Origin: Desulfobacterales bacterium
GTDB lineage: Bacteria > Desulfobacterota > Desulfobacteria > Desulfobacterales > Desulfosalsimonadaceae
Assembly (NCBI GenBank): GCA_034520365.1
Contig: JAXHNP010000002.1
Coordinates: 372,001-436,000, forward strand
Direction of reading: 5' to 3'
DNA length: 64,000 nucleotides
Part shown: positions 5,116-23,895 of the stretch, piece by piece
How positions within the stretch are numbered: the stretch's first letter is position 1
Layout: every line of letters starts with the position of its first letter
Program-made: the position numbers and the translations under genes
The notes under the pieces: model-generated
Seen by the model: only the letters and a program-made list of their open reading frames with translations
Database searches by the model: none
What the model was told of the DNA's origin: nothing

Positions 5116-5973
5116 TTAATCCATATGCTTTTCATGGATCATCATGCTCCCGGCGGGGCAATCCGTATGGGCGGCCACCACCGGACATTTGACCTTAAAA
5201 ATAAAGAAAATATGCTGATTCGCGTCTGACAGGGATTCAAAGTTGCCCTGGCCCTTTGCCACCACCAGATCCGCATCTTTGAAAGCCTGCTGAAAGGATT
5301 CGCTGCACTGCTCCAAAATCGTGCCTGGTGCGTCCGATCCGTTGTCCATCACATCCACCAGTTCCGTTATACCGGTGAATTCTGCATCCGCGCGCGTGGC
5401 ATCATTGATGACCGGGCCGCCGCGCACCACATAGGTGATGCGGTCCCGCTCAAGGGTTTCAATCAGCAGCCGGTCAAAAACGATTTCCCCGGTATTGTCG
5501 CCTAAGAACAGGATGTTCCGGGCAGATGCCATGGCCGCCTGAAACGCGCTGACATCTCCCTCCAGGGGTTGGGTCAGGGACTGTTCTATCACCGAGGCGA
5601 CTTCCGCCTGATTTACGGATTCCGCCAGCCCGAAGTCAATGATGTTTCCGGCAATAGAGAGGCGGATGGCCGCTTCAAGGGGATTTTTCGACTGCCCGAT
5701 GGTTTGTTTTAACTGCGGATAAAGCGACAGTCCAAATTCATTGTATTGCTTTTTGACCGCCGCATAGGGGTCGCTGTTGCCTGTGGCCGCCCGGATGATT
5801 TGATGGATGCGCTGGCCCATCAGGGGCGGCGGCTGATTGAGGTTCATGCCGGCGACATCTGAAAGGACGCACCGCAATACATGTTCATGCACATGGGTAT
5901 CAGCGGTCGCAAGCCTTGCAGCATTTAATGCCTGTTTCAGAAAACAGGGGATACATTCGTGATAGGTCTGCAT
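5116..5973 (-). CDS. DUF89/ARMT1-like damage-control phosphatase
   Basis: A 285-residue protein beginning with the CxxC pair (Cys7, Cys10) usual in prokaryotic DUF89 proteins. The conserved metal-site segment GDNTGEIVFDR lies at 158-168 and a VVAKGQGNFESL motif follows around 235. Family members are metal-dependent phosphatases that act on damaged or surplus phosphometabolites; the substrate cannot be told from sequence. It is the last gene of the minus-strand cluster that starts near 20084, 44 bases after the M48 peptidase gene, so co-transcription is likely although a metabolic phosphatase is a surprising partner for envelope genes. The gene ends convergent with the HEAT-repeat gene, with no clear terminator in the 28 bases between them. 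Confidence 0.85.
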   Translation of the reverse strand: MQTYHECIPCFLKQALNAARLATADTHVHEHVLRCVLSDVAGMNLNQPPPLMGQRIHQIIRAATGNSDPYAAVKKQYNEFGLSLYPQLKQTIGQSKNPLEAAIRLSIAGNIIDFGLAESVNQAEVASVIEQSLTQPLEGDVSAFQAAMASARNILFLGDNTGEIVFDRLLIETLERDRITYVVRGGPVINDATRADAEFTGITELVDVMDNGSDAPGTILEQCSESFQQAFKDADLVVAKGQGNFESLSDANQHIFFIFKVKCPVVAAHTDCPAGSMMIHEKHMD

Positions 5974-6017
5974 AGATGTCTTTTCTGTTGATCAGTTTTA
6001 AATCTGTACCATAGAGG

Positions 6018-6950
6018 TTAAAAACGCTCCCGGTAGGCAATAAACCGGTCTTTGACCGTGGCCAAGGCTGATGCATCCGGATAGTCCTTAAGGTGGTCAT
6101 AACATCTTTCAAGCCGGGCATCCAGCGGCGGATGGGTGGAAAACCAGGAGCCCTTGTGCGTGGCGGCCGCCTGCTTGGCCTTAAGCATCTCCAGCACCCG
6201 GATCATGCCCCGCGGGTCATAACCGGTGCGGTAGCCGAATTCCATGCCGGATTTGTCCGCTTCAAACTCCATATTCTTGTCAAGGCCTTTATCAAAGAGC
6301 ACGGTCTGAAGATCGCCGATCATCGAGCGGTATTTCTTGCCCTCCTCGCTGTCCATATTAATGGTGCCGATCTTGCCCAGGCCTTCTAAGAATTTGGCCC
6401 GTCGGATGGACTGCAGGGCATGCTTATGCGATACATGGCCCACCTCATGGGCCAGTACGCAGGCCAGTTCGGCCTCATCGGACATGGACCGGACCAGCTG
6501 GGAACTCAGAAAAATAATCCCGCCCGGACAGGCAAACGCATTGTATAAAGGGCTTTCAACAACGACAAAATAATAGTTGATACCTGGCCGGATGGAATTT
6601 CCGGCCGCTGCTTTGCCGAGAATATTGACATATTCCTGGAGTTTTTTATCCGCCACCGGCAGTCCGTAACGCTGGAAGCCCTCAAGGGCCAGAGTTTCGC
6701 CGATATGGAATTCAGTCTCGTAATCCATGCCTTTCGCACTCTGGGCGATGCTGCCCAGCCCCTCCGCTGCCTGTCTGGCCTTCTGGATATCCTCGTTTTT
6801 GCCTTCCGGATCAAGGATTTTAAAAAGATCCATGGCATAGGCCGGGCTGGCCAGGCCAATGGCCAGTGGCGCGGCCAGTTTCAGGAACTGGCGCCGGGTC
6901 TTAAATTTTTGATGGCTGCCTTTTTTACCCATAATCCTATCCCCCATCAT
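6018..6950 (-). CDS. M48 family zinc metallopeptidase, exported
   Basis: A 310-residue peptidase with HEVGH at 168-172 (two zinc histidines plus the catalytic Glu) and FEAD near 229-232 supplying the third zinc ligand, the M48 signature. The N-terminus has a twin-arginine-like KTRRQFLKL followed by a hydrophobic stretch ending SPAYA, so it is probably exported, perhaps folded with its zinc. Periplasmic M48 enzymes (YggG/LoiP, YcaL, BepA) act in outer-membrane protein quality control. Its ATG overlaps the SH3 gene stop (TAATG), indicating translational coupling. An alternative start is 6932, which has GGGGGA at good spacing. Position in the operon suggests it handles the same envelope process as the CHAT and YdbH-like proteins. 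Confidence 0.9.
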   Translation of the reverse strand: MMGDRIMGKKGSHQKFKTRRQFLKLAAPLAIGLASPAYAMDLFKILDPEGKNEDIQKARQAAEGLGSIAQSAKGMDYETEFHIGETLALEGFQRYGLPVADKKLQEYVNILGKAAAGNSIRPGINYYFVVVESPLYNAFACPGGIIFLSSQLVRSMSDEAELACVLAHEVGHVSHKHALQSIRRAKFLEGLGKIGTINMDSEEGKKYRSMIGDLQTVLFDKGLDKNMEFEADKSGMEFGYRTGYDPRGMIRVLEMLKAKQAAATHKGSWFSTHPPLDARLERCYDHLKDYPDASALATVKDRFIAYRERF

Positions 6951-7489
6951 TATTCGGCGTATTCGCCGACATGGCCGTTTTCTAAAAATGATTCGAGTTC
7001 GCGCGCTGAGATGGATATGGAAAGCACCTGATCCAGCGCTTCCCGGCTTTGCTTCGGCGTACCGGTTTTCTCCGCATACGCCTTCGCCTCAGGCGAAAGC
7101 CCCCGGATACTGCGGGCACTGTCAGCGGTCTCGGTTTCAACCGAGCTGCCCCCTAATCCGCCGAGCAGTCCGCCGATGCCGCCGCCCTCATCTTCTTTTT
7201 CGCTATCTGCGATTTCTGGTTTGGTTTCAGAAACTTTGCCCCGGTAGACCCAGCCGGTCCGGCCATTTTCCGTGGTGACCTGATACCATCTGGATTCATA
7301 GGCCTGAACCGAAAGCTCGGCCCCGCGCTGAAGTTCGGCAATGGTATCCGAAGAAATAAAGCGTTCGGCTTTTAGATCCGCGCTCCCGGAAGTCACCCAG
7401 AGGATTTCTTCGCCTTCCGCAAAAGCAAGGCCTGCCGCTGCCAGACAGAAAACGGCCAGAAAAAACATCAGTTGAATGCGTGTTTTCAT
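6950..7489 (-). CDS. Secreted bacterial SH3-domain protein
   Basis: A 179-residue protein with a cleavable-looking signal peptide (residues 1-24, ending GLAFA). A bacterial SH3 domain follows (about 28-90), with the usual YQVTTENGRTGWVYRGKVS ending. The remainder is a Gly/Glu-rich linker and a short helical tail that mentions no known domain. SH3b domains commonly bind peptidoglycan or peptides. It lies 15 bases after the giant CHAT gene and overlaps the M48 gene by one base, so it probably serves as an adaptor or anchor for one of these two exported proteases. That role is inferred from position only. Confidence 0.8.
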   Translation of the reverse strand: MKTRIQLMFFLAVFCLAAAGLAFAEGEEILWVTSGSADLKAERFISSDTIAELQRGAELSVQAYESRWYQVTTENGRTGWVYRGKVSETKPEIADSEKEDEGGGIGGLLGGLGGSSVETETADSARSIRGLSPEAKAYAEKTGTPKQSREALDQVLSISISARELESFLENGHVGEYAE

Positions 7490-7504
7490 TTTTACTCCTC
7501 TTTT

Positions 7505-10500
7505 TTATTTAAAATCCCCCACCAATGTAAACGCGCCCCAGTAGCCCGGGTGCGGGTATCGGCCCTTTACGTGACGGGCGGCGGCGCGCAGGCTGTCCGC
7601 CTTATTGTTCACCGTATACCGGCGGTAGAAGGTCTTTATCAACATGGCGGTGGATACATCGCTTACCCGCCAGAGGCTTGAAATTATCGTGTGGGTGCCG
7701 GCATAAAAAAACGAGCGGTTCAATCCGATGATTTCATCCCCGGCTTCCACTTTTCCCAGGCCGGTCTGGCACGCACTTAAGCATACCATATCCGCCCGGA
7801 TATCCAAGCCGAAAACTTCAGCCGCCCGCAGATTCCCGTCGGCTGTCAGGTCGGATAGACTTTTGGCGCCCGCCGGCCGGCTCAACTTGATGGCGGACAT
7901 CAGCGGATTGACAGGATCAAATTCGCCGTGCGAGGCAATATGGATGATATCAAACCGGGCGATATTTTCTACCACCCAGGCCTCGGTCGCCTTCTCCCCG
8001 ATGAGGGTGGTGATCTCCGGAAAATTCCAGTGGATGGAGTTTACCTCCTGCTCGGCAAAGGGCAGTTCCAGGGCCGGGTTTTCCAAATCCGGGTTGCCGA
8101 TGGCAAGGACCTGGAGCTGGAGCTTGGGCCGCTTGATCCTTCGGGGCAGAGTATAATCCAGCACACTGGCGCTTGGCAGATAAAAAAGCGAAAACTCGTC
8201 AATCAGAAAATTCTCTCCGCTTGACAGGGTGGCAAAGGAGAGATAGTGCAGCGATCCATGGGGAATGATCCCCAGCGTATGGATGCCGTCAAGGGCCTCT
8301 ATGACCGGCGCGATCAGCCGGTCGTACAGCTCTTTTGAATGGGTTTCATAGGGTTCCAGGTTCTGAATGATCCGCCGGTACCTATGCACCCGGGAGTTTA
8401 ACCGGCTTTGATCCGAGGGAATGCGGAAAAGCCGGACCGGGGCATCGCCTGAGCCTGAGCCCGTCTGCGGATTTTTAAGCACCCAGCAGAGGAGTTCATC
8501 ATCCAGTACATAATAGGACAAAAGCCCGGCGTCGGTTTCCAGGCGGCTGACAATTTTATCAGCACTTACGGTCGGAATGGAAATAAGTGTTGAGAGACGC
8601 GGGTGTTTGGCCTGGATATCCAGCATCAGGTTCTGCCGCTCATTTTTTAAATTTTTAAGCGCCGCCTGATAGGTTTGGACTTCACCCGCGTTTTCGGCAG
8701 CCGCCAGAAGCTGCTCAGTCGCCTCGATTTCAGCGGCCAGCACGGCCTGTTTATCATAGAGTTCGGTTTCAATCGCACTTCCCAGCGAAATTCGCTGGGT
8801 GCCCAGAAGATCGATGAAATTTCTGGATCGGGAGCGTTCCGCGATTTCAAACGCCGCCTCCGGCTGCGCCATATCCGCCAAAAGGCGGACCAGATCTTTA
8901 TACACATCAAGCCGGTTTTCCATGAAATTTTCCTTGAGCTCTTTTACCTTTATGGCAGAGCGCATGGATTCGATGATGTCAATTGCATCGCGCAGATAGG
9001 TTTCAGCCGCCTCCCGGTCGTTTTCAAGGGCAAGGCTCACCCGGCCCAGGCCGTAAAGCGCCCGCCAATGGGTTTCCTTTATCCGCATTTTTTTTGACAG
9101 CGAAAGCGCCTCAGAATAGGCGTCTTTGGCGGATTCATAGGTTTTTAGGGCAAGCAGCGCATTGCCCAGGCCGAGCCGGGCTTTGGCGGCATTAATCTGA
9201 TTGCCGATGGCATTTGACAGCTCAAATGCCTTTTCAAATAGCGGCACGGCAGTCTCTGGCTGCTTCATTTCAAGATAGGTCAGCCCTTTGTTCCGATAAT
9301 CATAGGCCATGGCCCATTTGGATTGGAGCTCTGTATCAATGGCCAGGGCCTGATCAAATGTCTCAAGGGCTTTCTCATAGTCGCCCCGCTCCCGGTGCAC
9401 CAGGCCGATGTTGTTCAGGGTGGAGGCGATTTCATCCGGCCGGATATCAAGCTGCCGGGCCTGTTTAAGGGCAATTTCCAGTTCCGTCAGGGATTTTTCA
9501 AAGTTCCCGAGCGACCACCAGATCAGCCCGGCCGTGTTTTTGGAGATCACTTCAAGCAGCGGGTAGTCTGTTTGCTCGGCCAGCTCATGGCACTTTCGCT
9601 GAAGCTTGAAGGCGGTTTCAAAATCCCCCTGGAACCAGGCATTGTTTGCCTGTTCGATGATGATTTTGGCTTTAAGCCGATTTTCATTTAGGCCGCTGCC
9701 GGCAGCCATTGAAAGCGCCTTCTCATACTGGTTCTCGGCTTTGGGAAAAATACCCAGCAGGCGATAGCATCGGCCGATATTCAGGCGGGCCTCTGCGGTT
9801 TTTTCCGGGTTGTCCATCTCCTTGTACAGGGCAAGGGCTTTTTCATAGTGCTGGATGGACTCGGGGTAGCGGTTTAACCTGAGATCATGGATGCGGCCGA
9901 TGTTTAGATGCTGGGCGGCCAGCATCTGGCGGTCATTGATGTCCCGGCTTAATTGGGCCGCTTTTTGAAACCGGCTTAGTGCGGATTCATAATGGGTGGC
10001 ATTCTCCAGAACCACCCCCAGATCCTTCATGGCAGCGGCCAGCTTCTGATCCGCGCCCAGCATGGCGAACATATCCACTGCCGTCTCGATCACCGGCACG
10101 GCCCGGTCATATTGGCTTTTCCGGGCATGGATGAGGCCCAGGGTCAGCATGGCCTCGGCATGGGCGCGGCTGTCCGGCTTTTCGGCTTCGAGTATTTCTG
10201 TCAGTTTCTCTGCAAACGCAAGCGCCTTTTCCAGATGTCCCGCCTGATATGCGGATTCCCGGCCAAACTGGTACAAGGCCGGCAGGTATTGGCTGAAATC
10301 CGGAACCTCAGAAGCGATGGATACGGCATGCTCAAAGTTGACCAGCGCTTCTTTCGGGTTGCCCTGATCAAAGGCTGAGCGGCCGGCCTTGATATAAGCG
10401 ATAAAGTTTTTTCTGGCAAACTCGGCGGATTCATCCGGGGTCATGCCGGCATCCCCGATATAAAGCGGCCGGAAAGGTTGGCCCGTCATGGCAGTGGCAT

Positions 10501-13500
10501 CAAAGGGGGTCATCTCTATATACCCGCTCAATAAATCCGCAATGCGGGTTTTTTCCTCGGAAAACGGCTGTTTAAGCAGGATCAGGCTCGGGCACCCGTA
10601 AATCGAAAACAAATGGGCAATGCGATCGATTTCCGACTCCGGCGGATCAGTGATAACAGACAGGGTCAGGCTGGAAGTCTGCGAAAGCAGATCCGCCAGG
10701 GGCAGACGCTTTCCAGATCCCGTATGAACCGCCAGAAACGATTCGGCTGATTCCCCGGCGTTGGTGGGGACGGTGGAAACCCGGGCCAAAGTGTGAGGCA
10801 TGACAAGGGTATTTGCCGCCCTCAGCACATAGGAATCATTGACAGCGGACCGGTCTGCCGCGTCTTCCCAATTCATGACCTCAAACAGTTCCGCCAAACC
10901 GCTTAAATCGAACTCATCTGATATGCTGAGAAGATGCTGTTTAAAGGGTTTTTTACTGGAAAGACAGCGATACAGATGAGTTCCGCTTAAGGCCTGCGGA
11001 TAGGGTTGTTCCGGATCAAGCGCCAACGGGGCTTCATAGGCAATATAGGTCAATTTTTCAGGGTCAAATTCAGACAGAGTTTGTCTGATGGCCTCCATAT
11101 TTTTAGCAATCTTAACAGAAAGGCTCTCCGGTGTGATGATGAAGACCATATATGAAGGCTCGACCCTGCCCGTGGGAAATATCCGGAGCATGGCCTCGTC
11201 CTCTCCCAGGGCATCCATCACATCCATTGCCTCGGCGGGCCGGGGGCGTAAAAAATCCATGAAATCCGCTGTTATCGGGCCATCGCCATTCTGGGTGCGC
11301 GTCGGGAGAGAGCGGGAGGTGGAGATAAGCGCCTCATAGCGCGATCGAAGCCCGGAAAGTTTATCCGGATCCGGATTTTCCAGCTGATTTTCTGCTGCCA
11401 GCTGATCAGCGATTTTCTCCGCCCGGAGGGATGCGCCCAGGATCATCATGACCCGGTGTTGGGTCTCTTTGTCTTTAATCTGCCGGATCAGATCCGGCAG
11501 ATTTTCGGTCTCAGATGTTAGAAGCGACTTTTCCCGGTCAAGCCGTTCTTTGATATACGGCTTTTTATCCGGATCCGCCGCATCCAGTTCCGTTTGATAG
11601 GTGTGTATCCGCAAAAGCCGCGGATACACACTCTCATAAAACGCGGCTTCGTTTTTCCCGGCCGGCTGGATGTGCTCTGCCGTCCGGTTGAAGCGCTCCA
11701 GCTCGGCAATTTGTTCGGCCAGGTTAAAGGCGGCTTCCGGATTTTCCGTTTTAAGCGTCTTGAAAACCAGGGGGCTGAATGGGTTTAGTATCTCCATGGG
11801 CTGACAGCCGGCCCGGGCCGGGCTTATATTGTTTTGGAGCACGGAGAAGGCTGCTTCAAGCCGCCCCAGTCCGGCAAGGGCCCGCCATTTGAAATCCGGA
11901 AGGACACCTTCTTCCGCGGCGGAAAGGGCGTTTTCAAAATGTTTATCCGCTGTTTGGCTCTCTTTCAGCTGATGGGCAAGGGCTGCGAGATTCAAATTCA
12001 GCCGGGCTTGAACTGCATAAGCCTCCCGGGCCGGCTGCAAATCCGTTTGCCCGCAAAGTTTAAGGCCTGCCGTAAAATGGCCGGCCGCACGGGTGAGGCG
12101 GTTCATTTTTTTCACCGCAGCGTCGGCACCTGCCCCGACCAAACGGCCGGCCGTCGCGGCATAGGCCACGCCCATTCGATTGTGGTATTCAGCCAGGCGA
12201 AGGGAGTTTCGGGTGGCAGCCGAGGCCTCAAGCAGGTCCCGGGTCTTACCCTCCAGGGCCTCAAATCTTTTTATCCGGGTATCTGTCAATCCGCGGCCCG
12301 GCTTATCCGCCGGGTGCATGGCTTCCATTCCCGCGGCCATGTTGGTGAGATTCATGGCCGCGCTGACCGGCGCCTGCATTTTCAGACAGAGCTCAGCCGA
12401 ATAGGCGAACCGGTCAAAGGCTGTCTCGGGCTCGTCCATGGCATGGGCCAGAAGCCCGGCCCGGTGATAAAGAAGGGCCACGCCGTAGCGGTCGTTTTCA
12501 GAAACAGTATCGCCCATGGGGTATTCGTCGAGCTGTTTGTCAATATGGGCGCGGGCGGCGGCCAGGTCTCCCAATTCAAGACGGATGCGTGCGATAAATG
12601 TTTCCGCCAGGCGCTTTTCCTGTACTTCAGAGAATCCGTGAGCCGCCTCAGTTGCGCCGGCTGTATCCAGGGCGGTTTGAAAGGAAATATCAAAGAGGGC
12701 CTGGTTTTTCTTTTTTTTCTCCTTCTCCGGCTTGGGCACTCCGTGGGCGTTGACAAGTTCCGGCACCTTTTGGAACTCTTCTGCAGCGGTTTCAAGAAGG
12801 CGCCGCCGCTTGGCCCCGGTAAAGGTCCGGGCCTGGTGATAGGTGTTATAGGCGACGGCCCGCCGGTTTCCGGCCAGATTTCGGGTCAGGCCCTGTTTTT
12901 GATTTAAGTCAAAGGCTTTCCTGAATGCATTCACGGCACATTCCCAATCTTCAAGTTCCTGGCAGACAAGGCCCAACCGGTCGGTCATTTCAGTTTTCAG
13001 GGTGATCAGCCGGTCAAACCCTTTGGCTGCAGCCAGGGGGTCCATGCGCTCATCAATTTTTTCAAGCGCCCGGTTATAGGCGGTTTTGGCTTGTTTTGCG
13101 GCTCTGGCCTGAAAGGCGCATTCCCCTAAGCGTTTATAGAAAACAATCTCGGTATTCGGGTCTGAGAATTCCGCCTCCCGGTCCAGGCGTTTGGCATAGA
13201 ATTCCAGGCCCTTGCCGTATTGACCGAGCAGATAAAATGCGTTTCCGATGTTTAGTTCCAGGTTGGCGGCATTTTCCGGGTTTACATCCGGATCGTTTAA
13301 AAAATAGGCCATTTTATAGGATTCCAGGGCGCGTTCAAGCTGTTCGGGTTTGTCGTAAACCGTTTCCGAGACCTCATAAATATAGCCAAGGGTTTGATGG
13401 AAATATTCCACATGCCCGTTTAAACGGACCGCCTGCTCAACCAGGTCCCGGGCCTCTTCAACGGTCTCTTCGGTTTCCAGATAGGTCAGGGCAAGTCCCG

Positions 13501-15700
13501 TGGTATAGAGCCAAATCGGTTCGTTCGGGTGCTGTTCAAGTTTTCGGCGGTAGTCGGCCAGTATTTGTTTTATATCACCGGCAGCGGCCGCACACTTGAT
13601 GTAGCCCCGATGCGCAGGGATGATGGTTTCGTCATAGTCGATCAGCTCTTTGAAGGTGTTTCTGGCAGATGGGATTTCGCCCAGCCGGTACAGGAATTCT
13701 CCGGAAGATGCGGTTTTTCGGATATATCCGTTTCTGGCCAGCTGATAAATCCGGTCTGTGGACGGCCGCTGCGAAATCTCCTTTTCATAAAGATCAAGCG
13801 CCTGTCTGAAGCGCTCCTCCTGGTAAAGAAGCTCTGCCAGCGAAAACCGGGCTGCCGCCGCCGGGGTGTTCTTTTCAGCAAAGCTGTCAATAACAATTTG
13901 ATAGGCCGACTTGGCGCTTTCCCGGTCTCCGGCGGCATAATATAGATCGCCGATCCGATTAAAGGCTGCCATGGCAAGCATCGGTATATCCGTGCGGCTT
14001 TCTTCCGCCATCCGGCGCAGGCGGTTGATTTTCATCTCCCGCGAGGCATCGGAAATTTCAGCCAGCGACACGTCAAGAAGGCGCTCCACCGCATCGTCTG
14101 TCCAGGGCCGCTGGTCGGGAAAACGCCTGAGCAGCCGTCGGTAAACCGTTTCAGCGGTTTGAGCGATTCCGGCCTGCTCATAGACCCCGGCCTTAAAAAA
14201 AAGAGCCTGGGCCATATGCGCGGGCAGTGTTTGATCATTGGCAATGATCGGATCTAGCCATTGCATGATCTTCAAAAATTCTGCAGATGCCTGTTTCTGC
14301 CGGATCATCAGCCGGGTTTTGGCAAAGGCGGCCGGTGCCCGGACTGAAAGCGTTTTTCCGGCTGAAAACGCCTCAATCTGTTGAATCGTCTGATCCAAAA
14401 GCTCCATACGCCGGGTTTGAGCGGCTGTTTGCTGAATTTTCCGCAGGCCTTCCAGCCGGATTTTCCGGATATGGGCAAGCGGTCCTTCGGGGGTGACATC
14501 CGGGTATGCCTCTGCGGTATATGCATAGATTTGTCGGGCGGCGTCGTTGAAATGTAACCGCTCTAATATTTCGCCGACGGCACAGCCGGCTTCAGCGGCA
14601 AACGCCGCGTTTTCAGCAAATGTTTCCAGGACCCGGTAATAAGCAAGCAGGGCCGGGTATGGTTCGGCCGGAAAGCGATCGGCAAGTTTTCGGGCAAGTT
14701 CAAGCTGGGTCCGGGCACTGTCCATAGCGGGAATGCGGCCGGCAGCCGGCAGGGTCCGGCAATTGGTTACCCCGGCCCGGTCAGACAGATAGAACAGGCG
14801 ATTCTCTCGCACCCGGGGATGTATTGCTGAATGGTTCAATTGGGTCAATGGCCAGGCACGCGCATTTTCGGCTTCCGCGGCAATCCGGCATATAACGGAA
14901 TTGTCGGCAGGGCTCAGGCGGCCGTCCTGATTGGTGTCTGAATCGATTCTCGAGAAGTAGATGTGCGTCCCGTCCGGCCCCCAGGCGGGATGCCGGTCAA
15001 TGGCCGGTCCGCTGGTGATCTGCCGGGTGTTTTTGGTGGTAAGGTCATGGACAAAGACATCCCCGCCCGCATCCGCCCTGAAAGAAATAAAGGCCAGTTT
15101 ATGTCCGTCCGGGGACACGGCCGCGGACATACCGTCCCCGCCGGTATTGACAGGCTTTGGGGCGGCCTGCGGCTGCCCGGGATCAAGAATGGCCAGATGA
15201 TTTTGGCCGTTTGATTCTGCCTGGTTGAAAAAAATCCGTCGGCCGTCGGCTGAAAACACAGGCATGTCATCCGCCGTATCCCGGCCGGTGAGCCGGACCG
15301 GCGGTGTATCCGGGGTTTTGAGGTTTAACAGAAAAATATCACCTTTGGCATCAAACCGGGTATCCACATAGGCGAGGTGTTTGCCGTCCGGAGACAGGGC
15401 AGGGGCGCGTTTGGCCGACGGGGCGGAAACAAGTTCGCGCGGCAGTCTGAACACCGCCGTATCAGCTGAGCTTATCCACAGCCTGGACCTTGTGCGGCCG
15501 CCGGTGACATAGACGATATCCCCGCCGTCTGCTGAGACCGCCATATCCAGCACCGGCTCGGTTTCTGCGGTGACCTGAAGCGGCGGTATAACCGGGTTTT
15601 TATTGTCGGCCCGGGCATGGGCGAAGGGCAGCAAAGCTGCCAGAAACAGCCACACGCATGCGGTTACGCCTACAATTTTATATGATCCATGAATCTTCAT
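7505..15700 (-). CDS. Giant exported beta-propeller / TPR / CHAT-domain protein
   Basis: A 2731-residue protein. The start chosen is the ATG at 15700, which overlaps the stop of the upstream lipoprotein gene (TGATG) and follows AAGAAAGAG; a start 8 codons earlier is possible. Order of domains: signal peptide (1-31); TolB/PD40-type beta-propeller (about 35-315, repeated SPDGxxLAFxS motifs); TPR superhelix (about 330-1330); a region resembling a degenerate CHAT domain (about 1490-1730); a second TPR array (about 1755-2230); and a C-terminal CHAT domain (about 2290-2731) with HIASHGEFD (His 2591) and LSACQTGLG (Cys 2644), the caspase-like catalytic pair. TPR-CHAT proteins are clan CD peptidases, the best known being the gRAMP partner, but that one is cytoplasmic and this one is apparently exported. 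Substrate unknown. Confidence 0.9.
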   Translation of the reverse strand: MKIHGSYKIVGVTACVWLFLAALLPFAHARADNKNPVIPPLQVTAETEPVLDMAVSADGGDIVYVTGGRTRSRLWISSADTAVFRLPRELVSAPSAKRAPALSPDGKHLAYVDTRFDAKGDIFLLNLKTPDTPPVRLTGRDTADDMPVFSADGRRIFFNQAESNGQNHLAILDPGQPQAAPKPVNTGGDGMSAAVSPDGHKLAFISFRADAGGDVFVHDLTTKNTRQITSGPAIDRHPAWGPDGTHIYFSRIDSDTNQDGRLSPADNSVICRIAAEAENARAWPLTQLNHSAIHPRVRENRLFYLSDRAGVTNCRTLPAAGRIPAMDSARTQLELARKLADRFPAEPYPALLAYYRVLETFAENAAFAAEAGCAVGEILERLHFNDAARQIYAYTAEAYPDVTPEGPLAHIRKIRLEGLRKIQQTAAQTRRMELLDQTIQQIEAFSAGKTLSVRAPAAFAKTRLMIRQKQASAEFLKIMQWLDPIIANDQTLPAHMAQALFFKAGVYEQAGIAQTAETVYRRLLRRFPDQRPWTDDAVERLLDVSLAEISDASREMKINRLRRMAEESRTDIPMLAMAAFNRIGDLYYAAGDRESAKSAYQIVIDSFAEKNTPAAAARFSLAELLYQEERFRQALDLYEKEISQRPSTDRIYQLARNGYIRKTASSGEFLYRLGEIPSARNTFKELIDYDETIIPAHRGYIKCAAAAGDIKQILADYRRKLEQHPNEPIWLYTTGLALTYLETEETVEEARDLVEQAVRLNGHVEYFHQTLGYIYEVSETVYDKPEQLERALESYKMAYFLNDPDVNPENAANLELNIGNAFYLLGQYGKGLEFYAKRLDREAEFSDPNTEIVFYKRLGECAFQARAAKQAKTAYNRALEKIDERMDPLAAAKGFDRLITLKTEMTDRLGLVCQELEDWECAVNAFRKAFDLNQKQGLTRNLAGNRRAVAYNTYHQARTFTGAKRRRLLETAAEEFQKVPELVNAHGVPKPEKEKKKKNQALFDISFQTALDTAGATEAAHGFSEVQEKRLAETFIARIRLELGDLAAARAHIDKQLDEYPMGDTVSENDRYGVALLYHRAGLLAHAMDEPETAFDRFAYSAELCLKMQAPVSAAMNLTNMAAGMEAMHPADKPGRGLTDTRIKRFEALEGKTRDLLEASAATRNSLRLAEYHNRMGVAYAATAGRLVGAGADAAVKKMNRLTRAAGHFTAGLKLCGQTDLQPAREAYAVQARLNLNLAALAHQLKESQTADKHFENALSAAEEGVLPDFKWRALAGLGRLEAAFSVLQNNISPARAGCQPMEILNPFSPLVFKTLKTENPEAAFNLAEQIAELERFNRTAEHIQPAGKNEAAFYESVYPRLLRIHTYQTELDAADPDKKPYIKERLDREKSLLTSETENLPDLIRQIKDKETQHRVMMILGASLRAEKIADQLAAENQLENPDPDKLSGLRSRYEALISTSRSLPTRTQNGDGPITADFMDFLRPRPAEAMDVMDALGEDEAMLRIFPTGRVEPSYMVFIITPESLSVKIAKNMEAIRQTLSEFDPEKLTYIAYEAPLALDPEQPYPQALSGTHLYRCLSSKKPFKQHLLSISDEFDLSGLAELFEVMNWEDAADRSAVNDSYVLRAANTLVMPHTLARVSTVPTNAGESAESFLAVHTGSGKRLPLADLLSQTSSLTLSVITDPPESEIDRIAHLFSIYGCPSLILLKQPFSEEKTRIADLLSGYIEMTPFDATAMTGQPFRPLYIGDAGMTPDESAEFARKNFIAYIKAGRSAFDQGNPKEALVNFEHAVSIASEVPDFSQYLPALYQFGRESAYQAGHLEKALAFAEKLTEILEAEKPDSRAHAEAMLTLGLIHARKSQYDRAVPVIETAVDMFAMLGADQKLAAAMKDLGVVLENATHYESALSRFQKAAQLSRDINDRQMLAAQHLNIGRIHDLRLNRYPESIQHYEKALALYKEMDNPEKTAEARLNIGRCYRLLGIFPKAENQYEKALSMAAGSGLNENRLKAKIIIEQANNAWFQGDFETAFKLQRKCHELAEQTDYPLLEVISKNTAGLIWWSLGNFEKSLTELEIALKQARQLDIRPDEIASTLNNIGLVHRERGDYEKALETFDQALAIDTELQSKWAMAYDYRNKGLTYLEMKQPETAVPLFEKAFELSNAIGNQINAAKARLGLGNALLALKTYESAKDAYSEALSLSKKMRIKETHWRALYGLGRVSLALENDREAAETYLRDAIDIIESMRSAIKVKELKENFMENRLDVYKDLVRLLADMAQPEAAFEIAERSRSRNFIDLLGTQRISLGSAIETELYDKQAVLAAEIEATEQLLAAAENAGEVQTYQAALKNLKNERQNLMLDIQAKHPRLSTLISIPTVSADKIVSRLETDAGLLSYYVLDDELLCWVLKNPQTGSGSGDAPVRLFRIPSDQSRLNSRVHRYRRIIQNLEPYETHSKELYDRLIAPVIEALDGIHTLGIIPHGSLHYLSFATLSSGENFLIDEFSLFYLPSASVLDYTLPRRIKRPKLQLQVLAIGNPDLENPALELPFAEQEVNSIHWNFPEITTLIGEKATEAWVVENIARFDIIHIASHGEFDPVNPLMSAIKLSRPAGAKSLSDLTADGNLRAAEVFGLDIRADMVCLSACQTGLGKVEAGDEIIGLNRSFFYAGTHTIISSLWRVSDVSTAMLIKTFYRRYTVNNKADSLRAAARHVKGRYPHPGYWGAFTLVGDFK

Positions 15701-16290
15701 CAGGACTCTTTCTTGGTTTTCCATGACCCGTCTTCCGTCTGTATCCTGACTCCGGCGGCCGCGTTTTCCGCCTGAATCCGGGCAAAAATACGCTCTACCC
15801 GCGGCATATCCGATTCCTTTAAATTCTCATTCATGTAGATCACCCGCTCCATGAGCTGTTTTCGGGCGGTGTTTACCCGGGAGACCACATGCTCAAACTC
15901 GGATTCCGAAAACCGATCGGAAAAATCCTTCAGATCTTCAGGCACATTCTTCTTTTCCATGGCAAACGGTTCAATATAGCCCTGGTTGTTCTCCCCGACC
16001 CAGCCCAGCCGCTTGAATGTTTCCAGATCGTCGGCATGAAAATCAAGGGTCTGCATGGCGGTGATGGCGTCTTTGTATTCCCGGCTGTGCCTTGGCGGCT
16101 CGCTGATTGCCCCGCTTTCATCCACGCCCCGGACCGAGGCGGCCAGAAGCATCTGGGCGTCCAGGGCGTTGTAGGTACCAAGCACCTGATTCTCCAAAGC
16201 GGTCCGCTCGCTCACCATCTCCACATCAACCCGGGCCAGCGTGCAGCCGGTGACCAGCGTCAACAGTAAAATGCAAATTACATATTTCAT
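15700..16290 (-). CDS. YdbL-like (DUF1318) lipoprotein
   Basis: A 196-residue protein. The start at 16290 is chosen because it follows AAAGGA and begins a lipoprotein signal with lipobox LVTGC (Cys14-15 region); a longer frame upstream would run far into the previous gene. The C-terminal 70 residues (VNTARKQLMERVIYMNEN onward, ending in a QTEDGSWK tail) match the DUF1318/YdbL pattern, where E. coli YdbL ends similarly. In E. coli ydbH, ynbE and ydbL work together in outer-membrane lipid homeostasis, with YnbE a small lipoprotein. Here the lipoprotein anchor and the YdbL domain are in one protein, directly after a YdbH/AsmA-like gene (19 bases) and coupled to the CHAT gene. Confidence 0.8.
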   Translation of the reverse strand: MKYVICILLLTLVTGCTLARVDVEMVSERTALENQVLGTYNALDAQMLLAASVRGVDESGAISEPPRHSREYKDAITAMQTLDFHADDLETFKRLGWVGENNQGYIEPFAMEKKNVPEDLKDFSDRFSESEFEHVVSRVNTARKQLMERVIYMNENLKESDMPRVERIFARIQAENAAAGVRIQTEDGSWKTKKES

Positions 16291-16309
16291 AGGATGTGTC
16301 CTTTCCTTT

Positions 16310-19300
16310 TCATCTATCAAACACCTCTTCAGCTGCCAGGGTTTCCGCGCTCGCAAGATCAAGGAGCTGTATAATTGGCGCCATGACCGAAAGAGTGTTC
16401 GCATAGGCTTGAATCCCCGGCAGCCGGGCAATGTTTAAGCGCTGAAGCGGGGGGATGGAAATCGGCACGGATTTCACCAGAACGCTTCCTTCCAGTGACA
16501 GAAACCCGTCCTTGATAGATAATTGAACCTGCTTGGGCGAGCCCATGCGAAGCAGGCGGCGCTGGGAGACAATGGCCTCATTGCTCTCATAGGGGTCCAG
16601 GGCGTAGAGGAGCCGTTCCAGAGCGCGGCTGCCGATTTTTCGGAATTCAATCACCACTTCCGCATTCTCCAGCAGATTCTCCATTTTTCGGGCCACCGGA
16701 ATGTTGGCATATATGGCCCCGCTGATTTCAGATGCCCCGCTTTTCATGTCTGCCGCGGCTTCCGGAAAAATGGAGGCTGCATCCAGGCCGGTAAAATTCA
16801 TCCGGGTTTCCAGAAAATATCCGCCGGATTGCGGATTGATCAGCAGATCGCCGATCAGCGTGCCGCCAAGAATATCGAGTTTCAAAGAGTCGATGGCCGG
16901 TAGGCCCCGGGAAAGCCCGATATTAATCCGGGAGGGGCCGATCCTGATCGGCACACCGGCGGCGGAGATTTTCCCGGACTGTAAAGAAATCCCCTGTTTG
17001 CGGTCTGCATGACCTGTAAGCGGGTTCATGCTGCCGCTAAAGGCGCCGGCTGCTGTCGCATCTGTCATTAAAGAGTCCCGGCTGCCCTGCATCATCTGCT
17101 GCGAAAGCCGGGTGCTTGACCTGTCGCCATCTGTCATGGATGCCGCCGGCTTGATTGTCACTTTCCTGGATAATCCAATATTGCCGTTTATGCCGGAGAA
17201 AGCAAACAGATCCCCCATTTCTGCGGAAAACTCCCGCATATTCAGTTGAACATCAGCCTCCACCGTATCCGCAGGCCGTTTCTGCACCGTAACGGAACTT
17301 TCAATGGCGCCGTTTACGTCAATGGCGCTTAAAGCCGGGAGCTTGAAATTCTTTAATGCCCGGCTCTCCTGAAGCGTAACATTTGCTGCTGCCCGGCCGC
17401 TGATTTGTTGAAAAATTTCATAGGGGGACTTTGCCCAAATATCCGGTGTTATGCCGTCCAAAGCGATCTCGATGGATTGATCAATATTGCCTGGCTGGAT
17501 TTGAAGGTGCTGGGTGACATTCATCCGGTCCAATCCCTTATGCCTGAGATCAAGCATGAACCGGCCGGACACTGGATCCGCCGGCTGCATACCCATTACA
17601 TCCATAACCCGATTGATATGGATTTGACTGGAGAGTTTGCCATCGGCATTCTTTCCGGAAAGCGTATAGGCAAAAAGCGGATCGCCTGAAATCCCGTCAA
17701 TGGTAACGCGGTCGTCTTTATCCTTCTGATACCTGAGGCCACCGTCCGCCAGGTTGAGGGTAATTTTGCAAAGATCCAGAAAACCCAAATTTTCGTTAAT
17801 CTTAAAAGCCTTCAGGTCTTCCAATTGCCTGGGATCAGGGCGCCTGCCGGCAATTTGGACACGTACGTTCGCATCTCCGGAAGCCTCCATATTCAATCGC
17901 TCTTCAAGGTGTAAGGCCTTCACAATCCGGTCTAAGCGGATGTCTGAGACGAGATCCGCATGAAAATGGTTTTTGCCGCTCTGTTCGGCAGCAGCAGTGA
18001 GATTCAGGGTGATCATGCCGCCCGCATCAACACCTAGATTCAGACCCTTCATATCCACATCCCAGGTTTCCATGTCATTGAGCTGGAATTCGGCAAGGGA
18101 GAGGTCCAGACCGGCGCTGGTTTCGGGCAGTCCATAGGCTGAATTTTCAATATGTACGCCGGGGATTTTGATGTGCACGTGATCAATGGTGCCGGCAGCT
18201 TTTCCATCCGGGTGGACTGCCATGCTTACATCCAGCGACTGGCTCGTCTCGCTTAGCGCGAGCAAATCCTCTAGTTCGAAGGAGCTCATTTTCGCGGTAT
18301 TGGATAGCTCAAATTCCCCGGACACCCCCAGCGGCGAATCCTCTTCCATACTTATTTGACCGGCTTTGACACGGAGGCTGTCAAGGGAAAATCCCCGCAT
18401 GGACATGCGCGTTTCCCCGGCCTCATAAGTCAGGTGTCCAATATTGACAGCGGCTCGCAGTTCGGCGGATGAGGGCATCAGATCGTCAAGCACGGCATTG
18501 ACGGATTGAAACGCGACGCCCGCATCTTCAATTTTAATCCCTTCAGCCGCTTCAATGCCGGTTTGATAGCCCACACCGGATGTATTCAGTTCAAGCGCTT
18601 GTATATTAATTGAAGTTTGCCCGGCGGGCAGGCGCCCCTTTATCCGGATTTTTTCAATGGATAAATCAGTATGGCTGTCAGCTGTTTGCCCAGGGATAAG
18701 CCCGGGCGGCAGGTAATCTTTGCCAAAAGCAGCCATTTCCTTAAGGTCCACATGAACCGGTGCAATCGTAAAATCCACGGCCGGTGCAGGACTTTTCAAA
18801 TCCCGGAGGCTGCCGCGGCATGTCAGGCGGGTGTTTGCCAAAAGTTTAATTTCTGACTGATCCAGTTTCAGATCAAACTTGTCGAGATCCATTTCTCCGG
18901 CTGCTGCCACGCGCATATCCCCCGGCCCCAGGCTGTTTCCGGAAAGCATTTTTCCGGCAAGAGAAACGGCTTTGCCGCTGAGTGCGGCATCAAAGCCAAT
19001 GATATCCGGTGCCGTCCGGGCGGCCTCGGCTTTTAGCTCCATGTGCCCGTTTATGTCACTATTATCTAAAAGTTTTGGCAGCAGCGGGGCTGCGGCGCCG
19101 GCAAGGGCTTTAAGATCAAGCGAGACACTGGCTTTAATGCCTGTATCCGCCATATCACCCTGAACATGAACCGCAGCCCCCGGCAGATCAGCATCTATTC
19201 GGGCGGCCACGCGATTAAGCCGCATCTGCCTTGAAGAATCAAACAGATTTTGCACTGTGCCATTGATGGCAGCATGGGGCAGGTCCTGGCCATTTACCGA

Positions 19301-19954
19301 GATATCCGCGGCAATGGATGCACTCACCGGCTTTCCAACCACATCCGGTGCCTTCAGATGAATATCCCCGTTTTTGACGCGATAGTGCCGGCCCGCCGCT
19401 TGATCCTGGTAAGTGATAGAAATGTCCGCCAGATGAATATCCGTGGAGATATCTAAAGGCAGCTTAAAGGGCGTTTTGGATGCTTCCGGTTCAGGCGGTT
19501 TCTCCTTTTCAGGCCTTTGGGGTCCGCCAAACGCTTCCGCGAGATTCAGCCGGCCGGCTTGGTCCCGAACCAGATGGATAACCGGGCTTTCCACAAAAAA
19601 CGAAAAATTCAACCGCCGCTTGAATAAATCCGAAATTTCTATTTCCAGATGGGCGCGGGGGATTTCTGCCATGGGTTTAGGGGAAAAATCCGGATGGCCT
19701 GGAATCTTTATCCCTTTAGCTGTAAATCCGCTCTTCCATGACCAGTTAATTTTCTGAATTTGAACCGGGTGGGGCAGCGCAGTATCCAGCTGCATTAATA
19801 TAAATTGATTTGCGCGGTCGGTGGATACAATTGTTGGCAAAAAGGCTATCAGTAGTAAAGCCAGAATTAAGACAAGCCCTAACAGCCCGATAAGGGCTAT
19901 CAGAGCCTTGGATAAGATTCGGCGTAACCGCCCGTAAGGCTTACTTGATGTCAT
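16310..19954 (-). CDS. AsmA/YdbH-like envelope protein
   Basis: A 1214-residue protein with one N-terminal membrane anchor (about residues 14-36, very hydrophobic) and a long beta-rich periplasmic body. The opening FLPTIVSTDRANQFILMQLDTAL... region matches the AsmA N-terminal pattern, and the C-terminal third (ILGGTLIGDLLINPQSGG and following) resembles the YdbH/DUF748-type end. AsmA-like proteins of this size are thought to form hydrophobic grooves bridging the inner and outer membranes for phospholipid transfer. It precedes the YdbL-like lipoprotein, the same gene pairing as E. coli ydbH-ynbE-ydbL, which supports the YdbH assignment. The start has AAGGA at good distance, and the upstream microprotein stop lies just before that site. 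Confidence 0.82.
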   Translation of the reverse strand: MTSSKPYGRLRRILSKALIALIGLLGLVLILALLLIAFLPTIVSTDRANQFILMQLDTALPHPVQIQKINWSWKSGFTAKGIKIPGHPDFSPKPMAEIPRAHLEIEISDLFKRRLNFSFFVESPVIHLVRDQAGRLNLAEAFGGPQRPEKEKPPEPEASKTPFKLPLDISTDIHLADISITYQDQAAGRHYRVKNGDIHLKAPDVVGKPVSASIAADISVNGQDLPHAAINGTVQNLFDSSRQMRLNRVAARIDADLPGAAVHVQGDMADTGIKASVSLDLKALAGAAAPLLPKLLDNSDINGHMELKAEAARTAPDIIGFDAALSGKAVSLAGKMLSGNSLGPGDMRVAAAGEMDLDKFDLKLDQSEIKLLANTRLTCRGSLRDLKSPAPAVDFTIAPVHVDLKEMAAFGKDYLPPGLIPGQTADSHTDLSIEKIRIKGRLPAGQTSINIQALELNTSGVGYQTGIEAAEGIKIEDAGVAFQSVNAVLDDLMPSSAELRAAVNIGHLTYEAGETRMSMRGFSLDSLRVKAGQISMEEDSPLGVSGEFELSNTAKMSSFELEDLLALSETSQSLDVSMAVHPDGKAAGTIDHVHIKIPGVHIENSAYGLPETSAGLDLSLAEFQLNDMETWDVDMKGLNLGVDAGGMITLNLTAAAEQSGKNHFHADLVSDIRLDRIVKALHLEERLNMEASGDANVRVQIAGRRPDPRQLEDLKAFKINENLGFLDLCKITLNLADGGLRYQKDKDDRVTIDGISGDPLFAYTLSGKNADGKLSSQIHINRVMDVMGMQPADPVSGRFMLDLRHKGLDRMNVTQHLQIQPGNIDQSIEIALDGITPDIWAKSPYEIFQQISGRAAANVTLQESRALKNFKLPALSAIDVNGAIESSVTVQKRPADTVEADVQLNMREFSAEMGDLFAFSGINGNIGLSRKVTIKPAASMTDGDRSSTRLSQQMMQGSRDSLMTDATAAGAFSGSMNPLTGHADRKQGISLQSGKISAAGVPIRIGPSRINIGLSRGLPAIDSLKLDILGGTLIGDLLINPQSGGYFLETRMNFTGLDAASIFPEAAADMKSGASEISGAIYANIPVARKMENLLENAEVVIEFRKIGSRALERLLYALDPYESNEAIVSQRRLLRMGSPKQVQLSIKDGFLSLEGSVLVKSVPISIPPLQRLNIARLPGIQAYANTLSVMAPIIQLLDLASAETLAAEEVFDR

Positions 19955-19961
19955 TTGATCC

Positions 19962-20084
19962 TTATTCGTACGAAAACAGCAGGCCTCTTTGTTTTTTTGC
20001 GTATTCCAGGCATTTTTCCCAATCCTCCCGATAAGCTTCCTCCACCTTTCGGATCATATGAGGCGGTATCAGAGGATCTTTCAT
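19962..20084 (-). CDS. Possible 40-residue microprotein leading the CHAT operon
   Basis: A short frame of 40 codons beginning ATG AAA GAT, rich in charged and aromatic residues (VEEAYREDWEKCLEYAKKQ in its middle), predicted helical and amphipathic, with no signal or membrane segment. It ends 7 bases before the AsmA-like start, and its stop sits beside that gene's ribosome binding site, so the two could be translationally coupled. Its own ribosome binding site is weak. The composition looks like real protein rather than noise, but no homology can be checked here. Function unknown. Confidence 0.5.
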   Translation of the reverse strand: MKDPLIPPHMIRKVEEAYREDWEKCLEYAKKQRGLLFSYE

Positions 20085-22453: not shown

Positions 22454-22458
22454 ATTTG

Positions 22459-23895
22459 ATGCCGCCTCTGGAACCTTTGACCTCTATTATCCGATGGCAG
22501 GATATCCTGGATATCCTGTTAAACAGTTATATTCTTTTCCGTCTCTATGTGCTGTTTCGCGGAACCCATGTAATTCGCGTCGTTGCCGGCCTGGCCCTGC
22601 TATGGCTGTTTCAGCGCGTGGCCTCACAGATGGGGCTGATCGTTACGAGCTGGGCCATGCAGGGCATTATTGCCGCGGCGGCTTTGATTATCATTATTGT
22701 TTTTCGCAATGAAATCCGAAATGTGCTCCAGGCCCAGAATCTTCGGGCCATCCTATGGGGATTTCCCAAAAAAAATCTTCAGACCCCGGTGGATATCCTG
22801 ACAGAAAGCGTCAGCGAACTTTCCCGCAGACGGATCGGCGCGCTGATTATTCTGCCGGGAAAAGAGGATCTGCGGGATATGGTGCAGGGCGGCGTGGACT
22901 GGCAGGGGTTGATTTCCCGCGAGATGCTGCTTTCTATTTTCTGGAACGGCAATCCGGTCCATGACGGGGCTGCCGTGATTGAGGGCAGCCGGATTGCCCG
23001 GGTGGGAACCATCCTGCCGTTAAGCCAGCGGCAGGATCTGCCCCAGCGGTTTGGCACAAGGCACCGGGCCGCGCTCGGCCTGGCGCAGAACTCCGATGCC
23101 ATGGTCATTGTTGTCTCTGAAGAAAGCGGCAACGTCATTATTGCCAGGGGGCATGATATTATTGATATCCATGACAATCAGGTGCTGCGCTACAATATCC
23201 GCAAACATCTGGGCATCGGATTGGCGCCGGCAAAAGGCCTAAAGCGAGAAACCGTGGAACTCTCCATTGCGGGGCTCCTGTGTCTGGTATGTATGACCGG
23301 TATATGGTTTAGCTTTACCAAGGGAATGGAAACCCTCACCACCATGGAACTGCCGGTGGAGTTTGTCAACCGCGCGTCCGGACTGGAAATTTTTGACACC
23401 TCATCCAGTACGGCCAAGCTCTACCTAAGCGGTTCCGGGGCGCTGATTAAAAATATGCGATCCGATCAGGTAAAGATCTCGGTGGATTTAAGCCAGGCGG
23501 ATATCGGCGCAAACGTGTATAATTTAAACGGTGAAAATGTGAGCCTGCCCCCTGGTATCCGATTAAACCGGATTGAACCGTCCGTATTAACGGTTACTTT
23601 GGATAAGCTGACCACAAAGATGATCCCCATCCAGGTTAACTGGGTCGGGGAAATGCCCGAAGGCATGCTGCTGAAAAGCGCGGATTTAACCCCCCCGGCG
23701 GTTAAGGTGGTTGGCGCAAGTCAACGGCTGGCGGAAACCCAAACCATTTACACGGAGCCGATAAAACTTGGCCAGCTCAGGGCCTCCGGCACATTGACCG
23801 CCAAGCTGCTTTTCGAACCCACATCCCTTCAGGCAGCCAAAGGGGCGGACGACCGCGTTAAAGTCAGCTATGTAATGAAACCACGCGATCCCTGA
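22459..23895 (+). CDS. Diadenylate cyclase fused to YbbR/CdaR repeats (c-di-AMP synthase)
   Basis: A 478-residue protein. Three N-terminal membrane segments (within about 20-84) are followed by a diadenylate cyclase domain with the catalytic DGA at 169-171 and the ATP-binding RHR at 201-203, the CdaA pattern. A fourth membrane segment (about 262-282) leads into two YbbR-type repeats that form the C-terminal half, normally found in the separate regulator CdaR. So synthase and regulator are joined in one chain. It makes c-di-AMP from two ATP. An ATG at 22459 is favoured over the TTG one codon before; the previous gene ends 5 bases upstream, so the genes are coupled. Confidence 0.92.
   Translation: MPPLEPLTSIIRWQDILDILLNSYILFRLYVLFRGTHVIRVVAGLALLWLFQRVASQMGLIVTSWAMQGIIAAAALIIIIVFRNEIRNVLQAQNLRAILWGFPKKNLQTPVDILTESVSELSRRRIGALIILPGKEDLRDMVQGGVDWQGLISREMLLSIFWNGNPVHDGAAVIEGSRIARVGTILPLSQRQDLPQRFGTRHRAALGLAQNSDAMVIVVSEESGNVIIARGHDIIDIHDNQVLRYNIRKHLGIGLAPAKGLKRETVELSIAGLLCLVCMTGIWFSFTKGMETLTTMELPVEFVNRASGLEIFDTSSSTAKLYLSGSGALIKNMRSDQVKISVDLSQADIGANVYNLNGENVSLPPGIRLNRIEPSVLTVTLDKLTTKMIPIQVNWVGEMPEGMLLKSADLTPPAVKVVGASQRLAETQTIYTEPIKLGQLRASGTLTAKLLFEPTSLQAAKGADDRVKVSYVMKPRDP

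Follow-up and report, generated by a model that had tools for sequence, protein, structure and literature searches.

We analysed a stretch of 64,000 nucleotides (hereafter, the window) from a Desulfobacterales bacterium (assembly GCA_034520365.1, contig JAXHNP010000002.1, positions 372,001 to 436,000), in which seven frames, all on the minus strand, succeed one another from position 20084 to position 5116. The core of this operon is a set of five genes, coding for an AsmA-clan protein, a DUF1318 lipoprotein, a giant protein with propeller, TPR and CHAT domains, an SH3 protein and an M48 peptidase. These five genes, found linked in numerous sulfate- and metal-reducing bacteria, very likely make up one functional unit, and probably one undescribed envelope machine; our searches of open-licence literature showed no paper on an AsmA-CHAT-M48 unit.

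The frames are tightly packed. A micro-ORF (20084-19962) is followed after 7 bases by the AsmA-clan gene (19954-16310) and, 19 bases further, by the lipoprotein gene (16290-15700), whose stop codon (15702-15700) overlaps the likely ATG start of the giant at 15700 in a TGATG motif. The longest frame of the giant opens at 15724 and ends at 7505; 15 bases separate it from the SH3 gene (7489-6950), which overlaps the M48 gene (6950-6018) by a TAATG at 6950. A DUF89/ARMT1 phosphatase gene (5973-5116) comes 44 bases later. The coordinates therefore agree with an earlier interpretation made from the letters alone (the sequence-only reading), which had described seven co-directional genes overlapping in TGATG and TAATG or lying at most 44 bases apart.

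Pfam scores exceeded the cut-offs (given in brackets, in bits) for DUF748 in the first protein (59.1 [50]), DUF1318 in the lipoprotein (36.3 [27]), CHAT in the giant (194 [24]), together with PD40 and TPR repeats, SH3_3 (29.9 [27]), Peptidase_M48 (104.5 [20.3]) and ARMT1/DUF89 (226.7 [25]). Profile searches of the bacterium's own genome gave a single CHAT match and a single DUF1318 match above cut-off, both at this locus. Judged by signal peptide, twin-arginine motif or lipobox, the components appear to belong to the envelope.

The AsmA-clan protein and the DUF1318 lipoprotein

The first core protein (16310-19954, 1214 residues) belongs to the AsmA-like clan by its DUF748 score. It carries an N-terminal membrane helix, and its AlphaFold2 model (residues 24-1214) has long strands across most of its length, with a mean predicted local distance difference test (pLDDT) of 82.9; the predicted template modelling score (pTM) is only 0.59, so that the overall shape is uncertain. 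The helix, a chorein-like start and a long beta groove, as expected of the clan, are predicted from the secondary structure and from matches of the N-terminal part. This part resembles the N-terminal fragment of Vps13 (Z 9.6 over 177 residues, 5.1 A) and the N-terminal domain of Atg2 (Foldseek probability 0.98, E 0.035), both of them lipid-transfer proteins. Matches to barrels (Z 9-11) had large root mean square deviations, and we took them as an indication of shape only.

The sequence-only reading had called this protein AsmA/YdbH-like, and only the first half of the name can be kept. The YdbH profile PF11739 had no match at E values up to 1, either in the protein or in its own genome, in a search which found the E. 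coli and Caulobacter proteins. When the profile of the protein (built from 42 of 47 references) was compared to the six AsmA-clan proteins of E. coli, less that of yicH (of which the E. coli sequence used held only the end), all five were weakly related, and YdbH the least. On these two results, we reject membership of the YdbH family.

The second protein (15700-16290, 196 residues) belongs to DUF1318 (YdbL type) by its PF07027 score, and counts as a lipoprotein because of its lipobox. Its profile, built from 36 of 59 references, aligned with YdbL across the DUF1318 part (hhalign probability 89.9), and its top solved relative is named YdbL, with a weak match (E 0.072). Directly after the lipobox cysteine, the alignment contains a near-invariant stretch of alternating residues, TLAxVxVxxxSERTxLENQ. 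By analogy, this stretch could add a strand to the end of the AsmA protein, as YnbE may do for YdbH. No YnbE partner was found: the conserved set has the DUF1318 protein as its lipoprotein, and the profile of that protein matches E. coli YnbE in the signal-peptide region only.

The E. coli YdbH-YnbE-YdbL system and the present operon thus each combine a gene of the AsmA clan with a co-directional DUF1318 gene in a single cluster, and both have envelope products. They differ in that the AsmA-clan gene of the window is of the DUF748 type, YnbE is absent, and genes for the giant CHAT, SH3 and M48 proteins are added. Moreover, the DUF1318 protein of the window has a lipobox, whereas none was seen by eye in E. 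coli YdbL.

The giant protein and the SH3-M48 pair

The giant (7505-15724) has up to 2739 residues, arranged as propeller, TPR, putative dead CHAT, TPR and CHAT, and members of its family, found in 68 loci, have about 2,700-3,000. Their N-termini carry signal peptides, and lipobox-like motifs were read by eye in a few loci (for instance L078, L087, L088, L089 and L091). A propeller of PD40 repeats (71.5 bits) occupies approximately residues 61-330 (14735-15544). Such repeats are shared with TolB, but the giant joins its propeller to TPR arrays and CHAT, and scores 88 bits with the TolB model against a cut-off of 343. About 114 residues near residue 903 are missing, in frame, from the giant of the window (12845-14017); they are present wholly or partly in the 12 other sequences of the alignment A1.

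At the C-terminus lies the CHAT domain (PF12770; residues 2463-2737, 7514-8338) with its His-Cys dyad. His2599 is kept in 60 of 60 ungapped rows and Cys2652 in 59 of 59, in an alignment of 65 rows, and this module apparently holds a live protease site. In a search of the Protein Data Bank (PDB) by sequence, the region gave one weak, irrelevant match.

The middle of the giant, modelled as residues 1290-1790 (10355-11857), matched no named protease family in Pfam. Its AlphaFold2 model, built from 61 sequences, is a confident one (pLDDT 89.8, pTM 0.91). The best VIA-align match was yeast separase (Z 17.9 over 291 residues, 3.9 A), followed by human separase and the TPR-CHAT protein of Craspase (both Z 17.5); dehydrogenase-type Rossmann proteins came lower, at Z of about 10 and below. 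None of the 63 aligned rows has a cysteine at the position expected by sequence for that of CHAT, or an [SA]HG motif. Because of this separase-like fold and the missing cysteine and [SA]HG motif, we consider the region, as modelled, to be a dead separase/CHAT module. Identification had to rely on the fold, since hhalign yielded weak fragments alone, colinear in one comparison, and a PDB sequence profile search nothing credible. What is new is thus that the middle of the giant is predicted to be a second module of CHAT/separase fold devoid of the His-Cys motifs, so that one exported protein would pair a dead module with an apparently live one.

The comparison with separase concerns the way the module may work, and no membership is claimed. 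According to an excerpt of PMC9729208, TPR-CHAT (Csx29) resembles separase and cuts Csx30. Both TPR-CHAT and eukaryotic separase share with the giant a TPR array, a caspase-like CHAT/separase module and a His-Cys dyad. Unlike them, the giant is exported by a signal, has two modules of which the first is dead by the above prediction, bears a propeller, and stands in no CRISPR or cohesin context. The Csx29 model NF041237 gave 39.7 bits against a cut-off of 300, which excludes the giant from that family. As part of PMC4626109 makes the case that a second, inactive caspase-like domain is lacking in separase itself, we draw no separase parallel for the dead/live pair. A role in defence was discarded, the PADLOC match being to a generic TPR model only.

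The module also matches DdvA, a transmembrane anti-sigma factor (8rot, Z 15.7). Sharing of the fold with both DdvA and TPR-CHAT speaks for envelope stress signalling, in which the two modules would form a sensor-protease cutting a regulator upon envelope breach, as Craspase cuts Csx30, and in which the bridge genes would report the state of the envelope; Csx30 itself binds RpoE, as a passage of PMC9729208 has it. Nevertheless, the conserved set contains no regulator gene, and in a scan of ten neighbours, a histidine-kinase gene came after the giant only in L074 and L088. We regard this explanation as quite improbable.

The exported SH3 protein (6950-7489, 179 residues; alignment built from 21 of 29 references) has conserved C-terminal motifs, SRSIRGLSPE and IGEYA. 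The M48 metallopeptidase (6018-6950, 310 residues) has a twin-arginine motif and the zinc motifs HEVGH and EFEAD. In eight loci (L086, L090, L096, L097, L099, L101, L103 and L119), four of them named Humidesulfovibrio, Desulfocurvus or Desulfovibrionales, the two are fused into one frame. Pfam found both domains in the one fused frame submitted to it, SH3_4 scoring just above and SH3_3 just below the cut-off. Such fusion strongly suggests that the SH3 and M48 proteins act as a pair. All 28 unfused sequences have intact zinc motifs, as do 5 of the 8 fused ones (33 of 36 overall).

The best solved relatives of the M48 protein are the M48 entry 3c37 and then BepA structures. BepA is also its best NCBIfam model, at 78.4 bits against a cut-off of 570, too low for membership. 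With BepA and other M48 envelope peptidases it shares the M48 domain and its zinc motifs; it differs from BepA in having no TPR match in Pfam across its 310 residues, and in its pairing with an SH3 protein, either as a neighbour or within one frame.

Conservation and splitting of the operon

A first survey covered 60 genomes, the bacterium's own and relatives, searched with the AsmA protein and the CHAT profile. The AsmA protein matched in 19 genomes with E below 1e-50, and the 15 genomes having a CHAT frame of at least 1,700 residues all fall within these 19. The five-gene order was read in two genomes from the genus (in one, the contig stops within the AsmA gene), in three from the family and in one from a different family. 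Contig ends interrupted many further loci, and the giant lay apart from the AsmA gene in G046, G057 and G059.

In a second survey, genome contigs were scanned with a single query, a conserved TPR segment from the giant (A1). Since a locus is picked up only if it contains one or other of two short peptides without mismatch, the scan lists carriers incompletely and absence elsewhere cannot be deduced from it. The 68 loci obtained lie in records named Desulfobacterales, Humidesulfovibrio, Desulfocurvus, Geomonas, Citrifermentans, Geobacter and Deferrisomatales, among others. The lipoprotein gene adjoins the giant in 58 of the 66 loci with at least 650 bases upstream (L087 and L089 were too short to be counted). 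Where at least 3.9 kb were available upstream (55 loci), the AsmA gene was present in 48 and the lipoprotein gene in 49, and where at least 1.7 kb were available downstream (50 loci), SH3 and M48 genes were present in 35. The 15 others, L084, L088, L094, L100 and L107 included, have no adjoining SH3-M48 pair. The order AsmA-DUF1318-giant CHAT-SH3-M48 recurs in records named Desulfobacterales, Geomonas, Geobacter and Deferrisomatales, and in Desulfovibrio relatives with SH3 and M48 fused.

For the third survey, the lipoprotein (A6) and the giant (A1) served as queries against one set of 217 genomes from the phylum. The giant was found in seven (E 1e-15 or better), and a strong lipoprotein match (E below 1e-40) in six of these seven and in no other genome, the remaining 210 having neither (Fisher test, 5e-11, kinship ignored). 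In the seventh, G247, whose contig opens inside the giant gene, the giant runs from base 2, the side on which the lipoprotein gene is expected. Lipoprotein matches at E 0.001 or better occurred in 28 genomes; the 22 weak ones (1e-7 to 4e-4) were excluded by a line drawn after the gap had been seen. In the divergent genome G082, all five genes are present in order; in G116, giant and lipoprotein are on different contigs.

These synteny and co-occurrence counts confirm that the arrangement is more than local chance. The sequence-only reading had named a lack of co-occurrence in other genomes as its refutation; the linkage of CHAT and M48 genes to AsmA-clan and DUF1318 genes has survived this test.

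Eight giants have no adjoining lipoprotein gene (L064, L065, L067, L068, L074, L081, L083 and L116). In all eight genomes the lipoprotein is encoded elsewhere (E below 1e-87), and the SH3 protein was found in seven (E below 1e-40), the eighth, G279, giving only 1e-6. The M48 gene stands beside SH3 in 7 of 7, and the AsmA gene beside the lipoprotein in 7 of 8, the stretch of L158 holding the lipoprotein only. One of the splits, that of L074, most plausibly reflects faulty assembly, which leaves seven real ones: its giant frame meets runs of N, and other parts of it are found next to the lipoprotein gene and next to the SH3-M48 genes of the same complete-chromosome record (L148 and L149), most likely as a result of a scaffolding error that dispersed the gene over three places. 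Upstream of the giant in L065, from Desulfonema magnum, an anaerobic ribonucleotide reductase frame contains intein and homing-endonuclease domains (L065:2-4396).

The splits bear on whether the genes merely share an old operon, and would encode two or three independent envelope functions without physical interplay. In the seven genomes, the operon is cut into exactly the blocks that this predicts (bridge pair, giant, SH3-M48 pair), and all blocks are retained. Yet that they are retained after splitting, and that giant and lipoprotein strictly accompany each other in the 217 genomes, argues for functional dependence, and we hold independence to be improbable.

Two members of the seven-gene run, which the sequence-only reading had counted in the operon, did not prove to belong to the conserved unit. 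The 40-codon micro-ORF has no support as a gene: tblastn gave no convincing relative in the loci searched, the best other match having an E value of 1.9. The DUF89 phosphatase gene, co-directional here, accompanies the five-gene unit in 2 of the 50 loci with downstream room, plus L049, and lies outside the core. A general AsmA-DUF1318 pairing across the phylum is likewise unproven. In the eight loci read among the 22 genomes with weak lipoprotein matches, a same-strand frame of 506-893 residues lies directly upstream of the DUF1318 gene in every case; Pfam recognized AsmA in one, weakly, and our AsmA profile gave a clear score in one (16 bits).

Elsewhere in the window, a 942-residue HEAT-repeat protein (2259-5087) is convergent with the operon and has relatives near it in L023 and L032, and a single frame (22456-23895) combines a diadenylate cyclase (DAC) domain with YbbR repeats.

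A lipid bridge under protease control?

In excerpts of PMC8593681, YhdP, TamB and YdbH are presented as redundant, proposed phospholipid transporters, and those of PMC12977461 and PMC11784454 have YdbH working with the lipoprotein YnbE. The excerpts of PMC8593681 and PMC12977461 leave open by which means phospholipids cross the periplasm and what regulates AsmA-type bridges. It can reasonably be inferred that the present operon may place a lipid bridge, or outer-membrane quality, under protease control. Our preferred reading is the lipid bridge under protease control, to which we give a probability of about 0.4.

The mechanism could be the following. The AsmA protein would start from the inner membrane, span the periplasm and join the lipoprotein at the outer membrane, much like YdbH and YnbE in E. 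coli, and the bridge so formed would move phospholipid. The giant would be docked to this bridge by its propeller and TPR arrays, its dead module binding or sensing a partner. Upon disturbance of the bridge or of the outer membrane, the live CHAT site would make a specific cut, and the SH3-M48 pair would trim or remove faulty components, like BepA. Taken as a whole, this scheme is tentative, a little short of even odds; it is least secure as to what the CHAT site cuts and whether lipid is the cargo.

Several observations weigh against it. TamB, also of the AsmA clan, has been tied to protein assembly as well, so that AsmA kinship does not imply a lipid cargo. The AsmA protein lacks a YdbH match and no YnbE-like partner was found, which leaves DUF1318 and the fold as the basis of the comparison with E. 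coli. In seven genomes the giant is encoded apart from the bridge genes, and operon coupling is therefore not required. Concerning the putative dead module, Foldseek alone gave no match at E 0.001 or better; the separase rows come from a second look by VIA-align at the Foldseek list, in which ciliary central-pair chains (Z 16.0) and DdvA ranked too. Zinc motifs are broken in three of the eight fused SH3-M48 proteins (L096, L099 and L119), which may for this reason have turned into non-catalytic partners. Finally, the sets of evidence overlap, several genomes having entered more than one search (G271, G278 and G279 are G057, G059 and G046; G096, G118 and G255 are the records of L086, L106 and L091).

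The main rival to the lipid-bridge reading is quality control of outer-membrane protein assembly. A TamB-like AsmA protein would here take part in assembly of outer-membrane proteins, the giant would be a scaffold holding clients by its TPR and propeller parts, and CHAT and SH3-M48 would clear those that stall, the cargo not being lipid. The link of TamB with outer-membrane protein assembly, made in a portion of PMC12977461, speaks for this, as do the TolB-like repeats and TPR arrays of the giant and the place of BepA among the relatives of the M48 protein, far below the family cut-off as it is. The conserved partner, however, is a DUF1318 lipoprotein, whose E. coli relative stands with a putative phospholipid-transport protein, and no gene resembling TamA or Bam turned up in the conserved surroundings, where scoring was limited to the neighbours for which we had built profiles. 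On balance, we find this rival rather unlikely.

Returning to the lipid bridge, a more specific and less probable reading is that a separase-like protease of two modules, working outside the cytoplasm, licenses or dismantles a trans-envelope AsmA-based bridge, which would thus have proteolytic control built in. On this reading, such a bridge would be old enough to be shared by Desulfobacterales, relatives of Desulfovibrio and of Geobacter, and Deferrisomatales. CHAT proteases are known mostly from the cytoplasm. Knowledge of them would be broadened by a protein that is exported and combines a dead with a live separase-like module. As to AsmA-type bridges, a deeply conserved operon tying one to two proteases would offer a direct genetic handle on them in a different branch of diderm bacteria.

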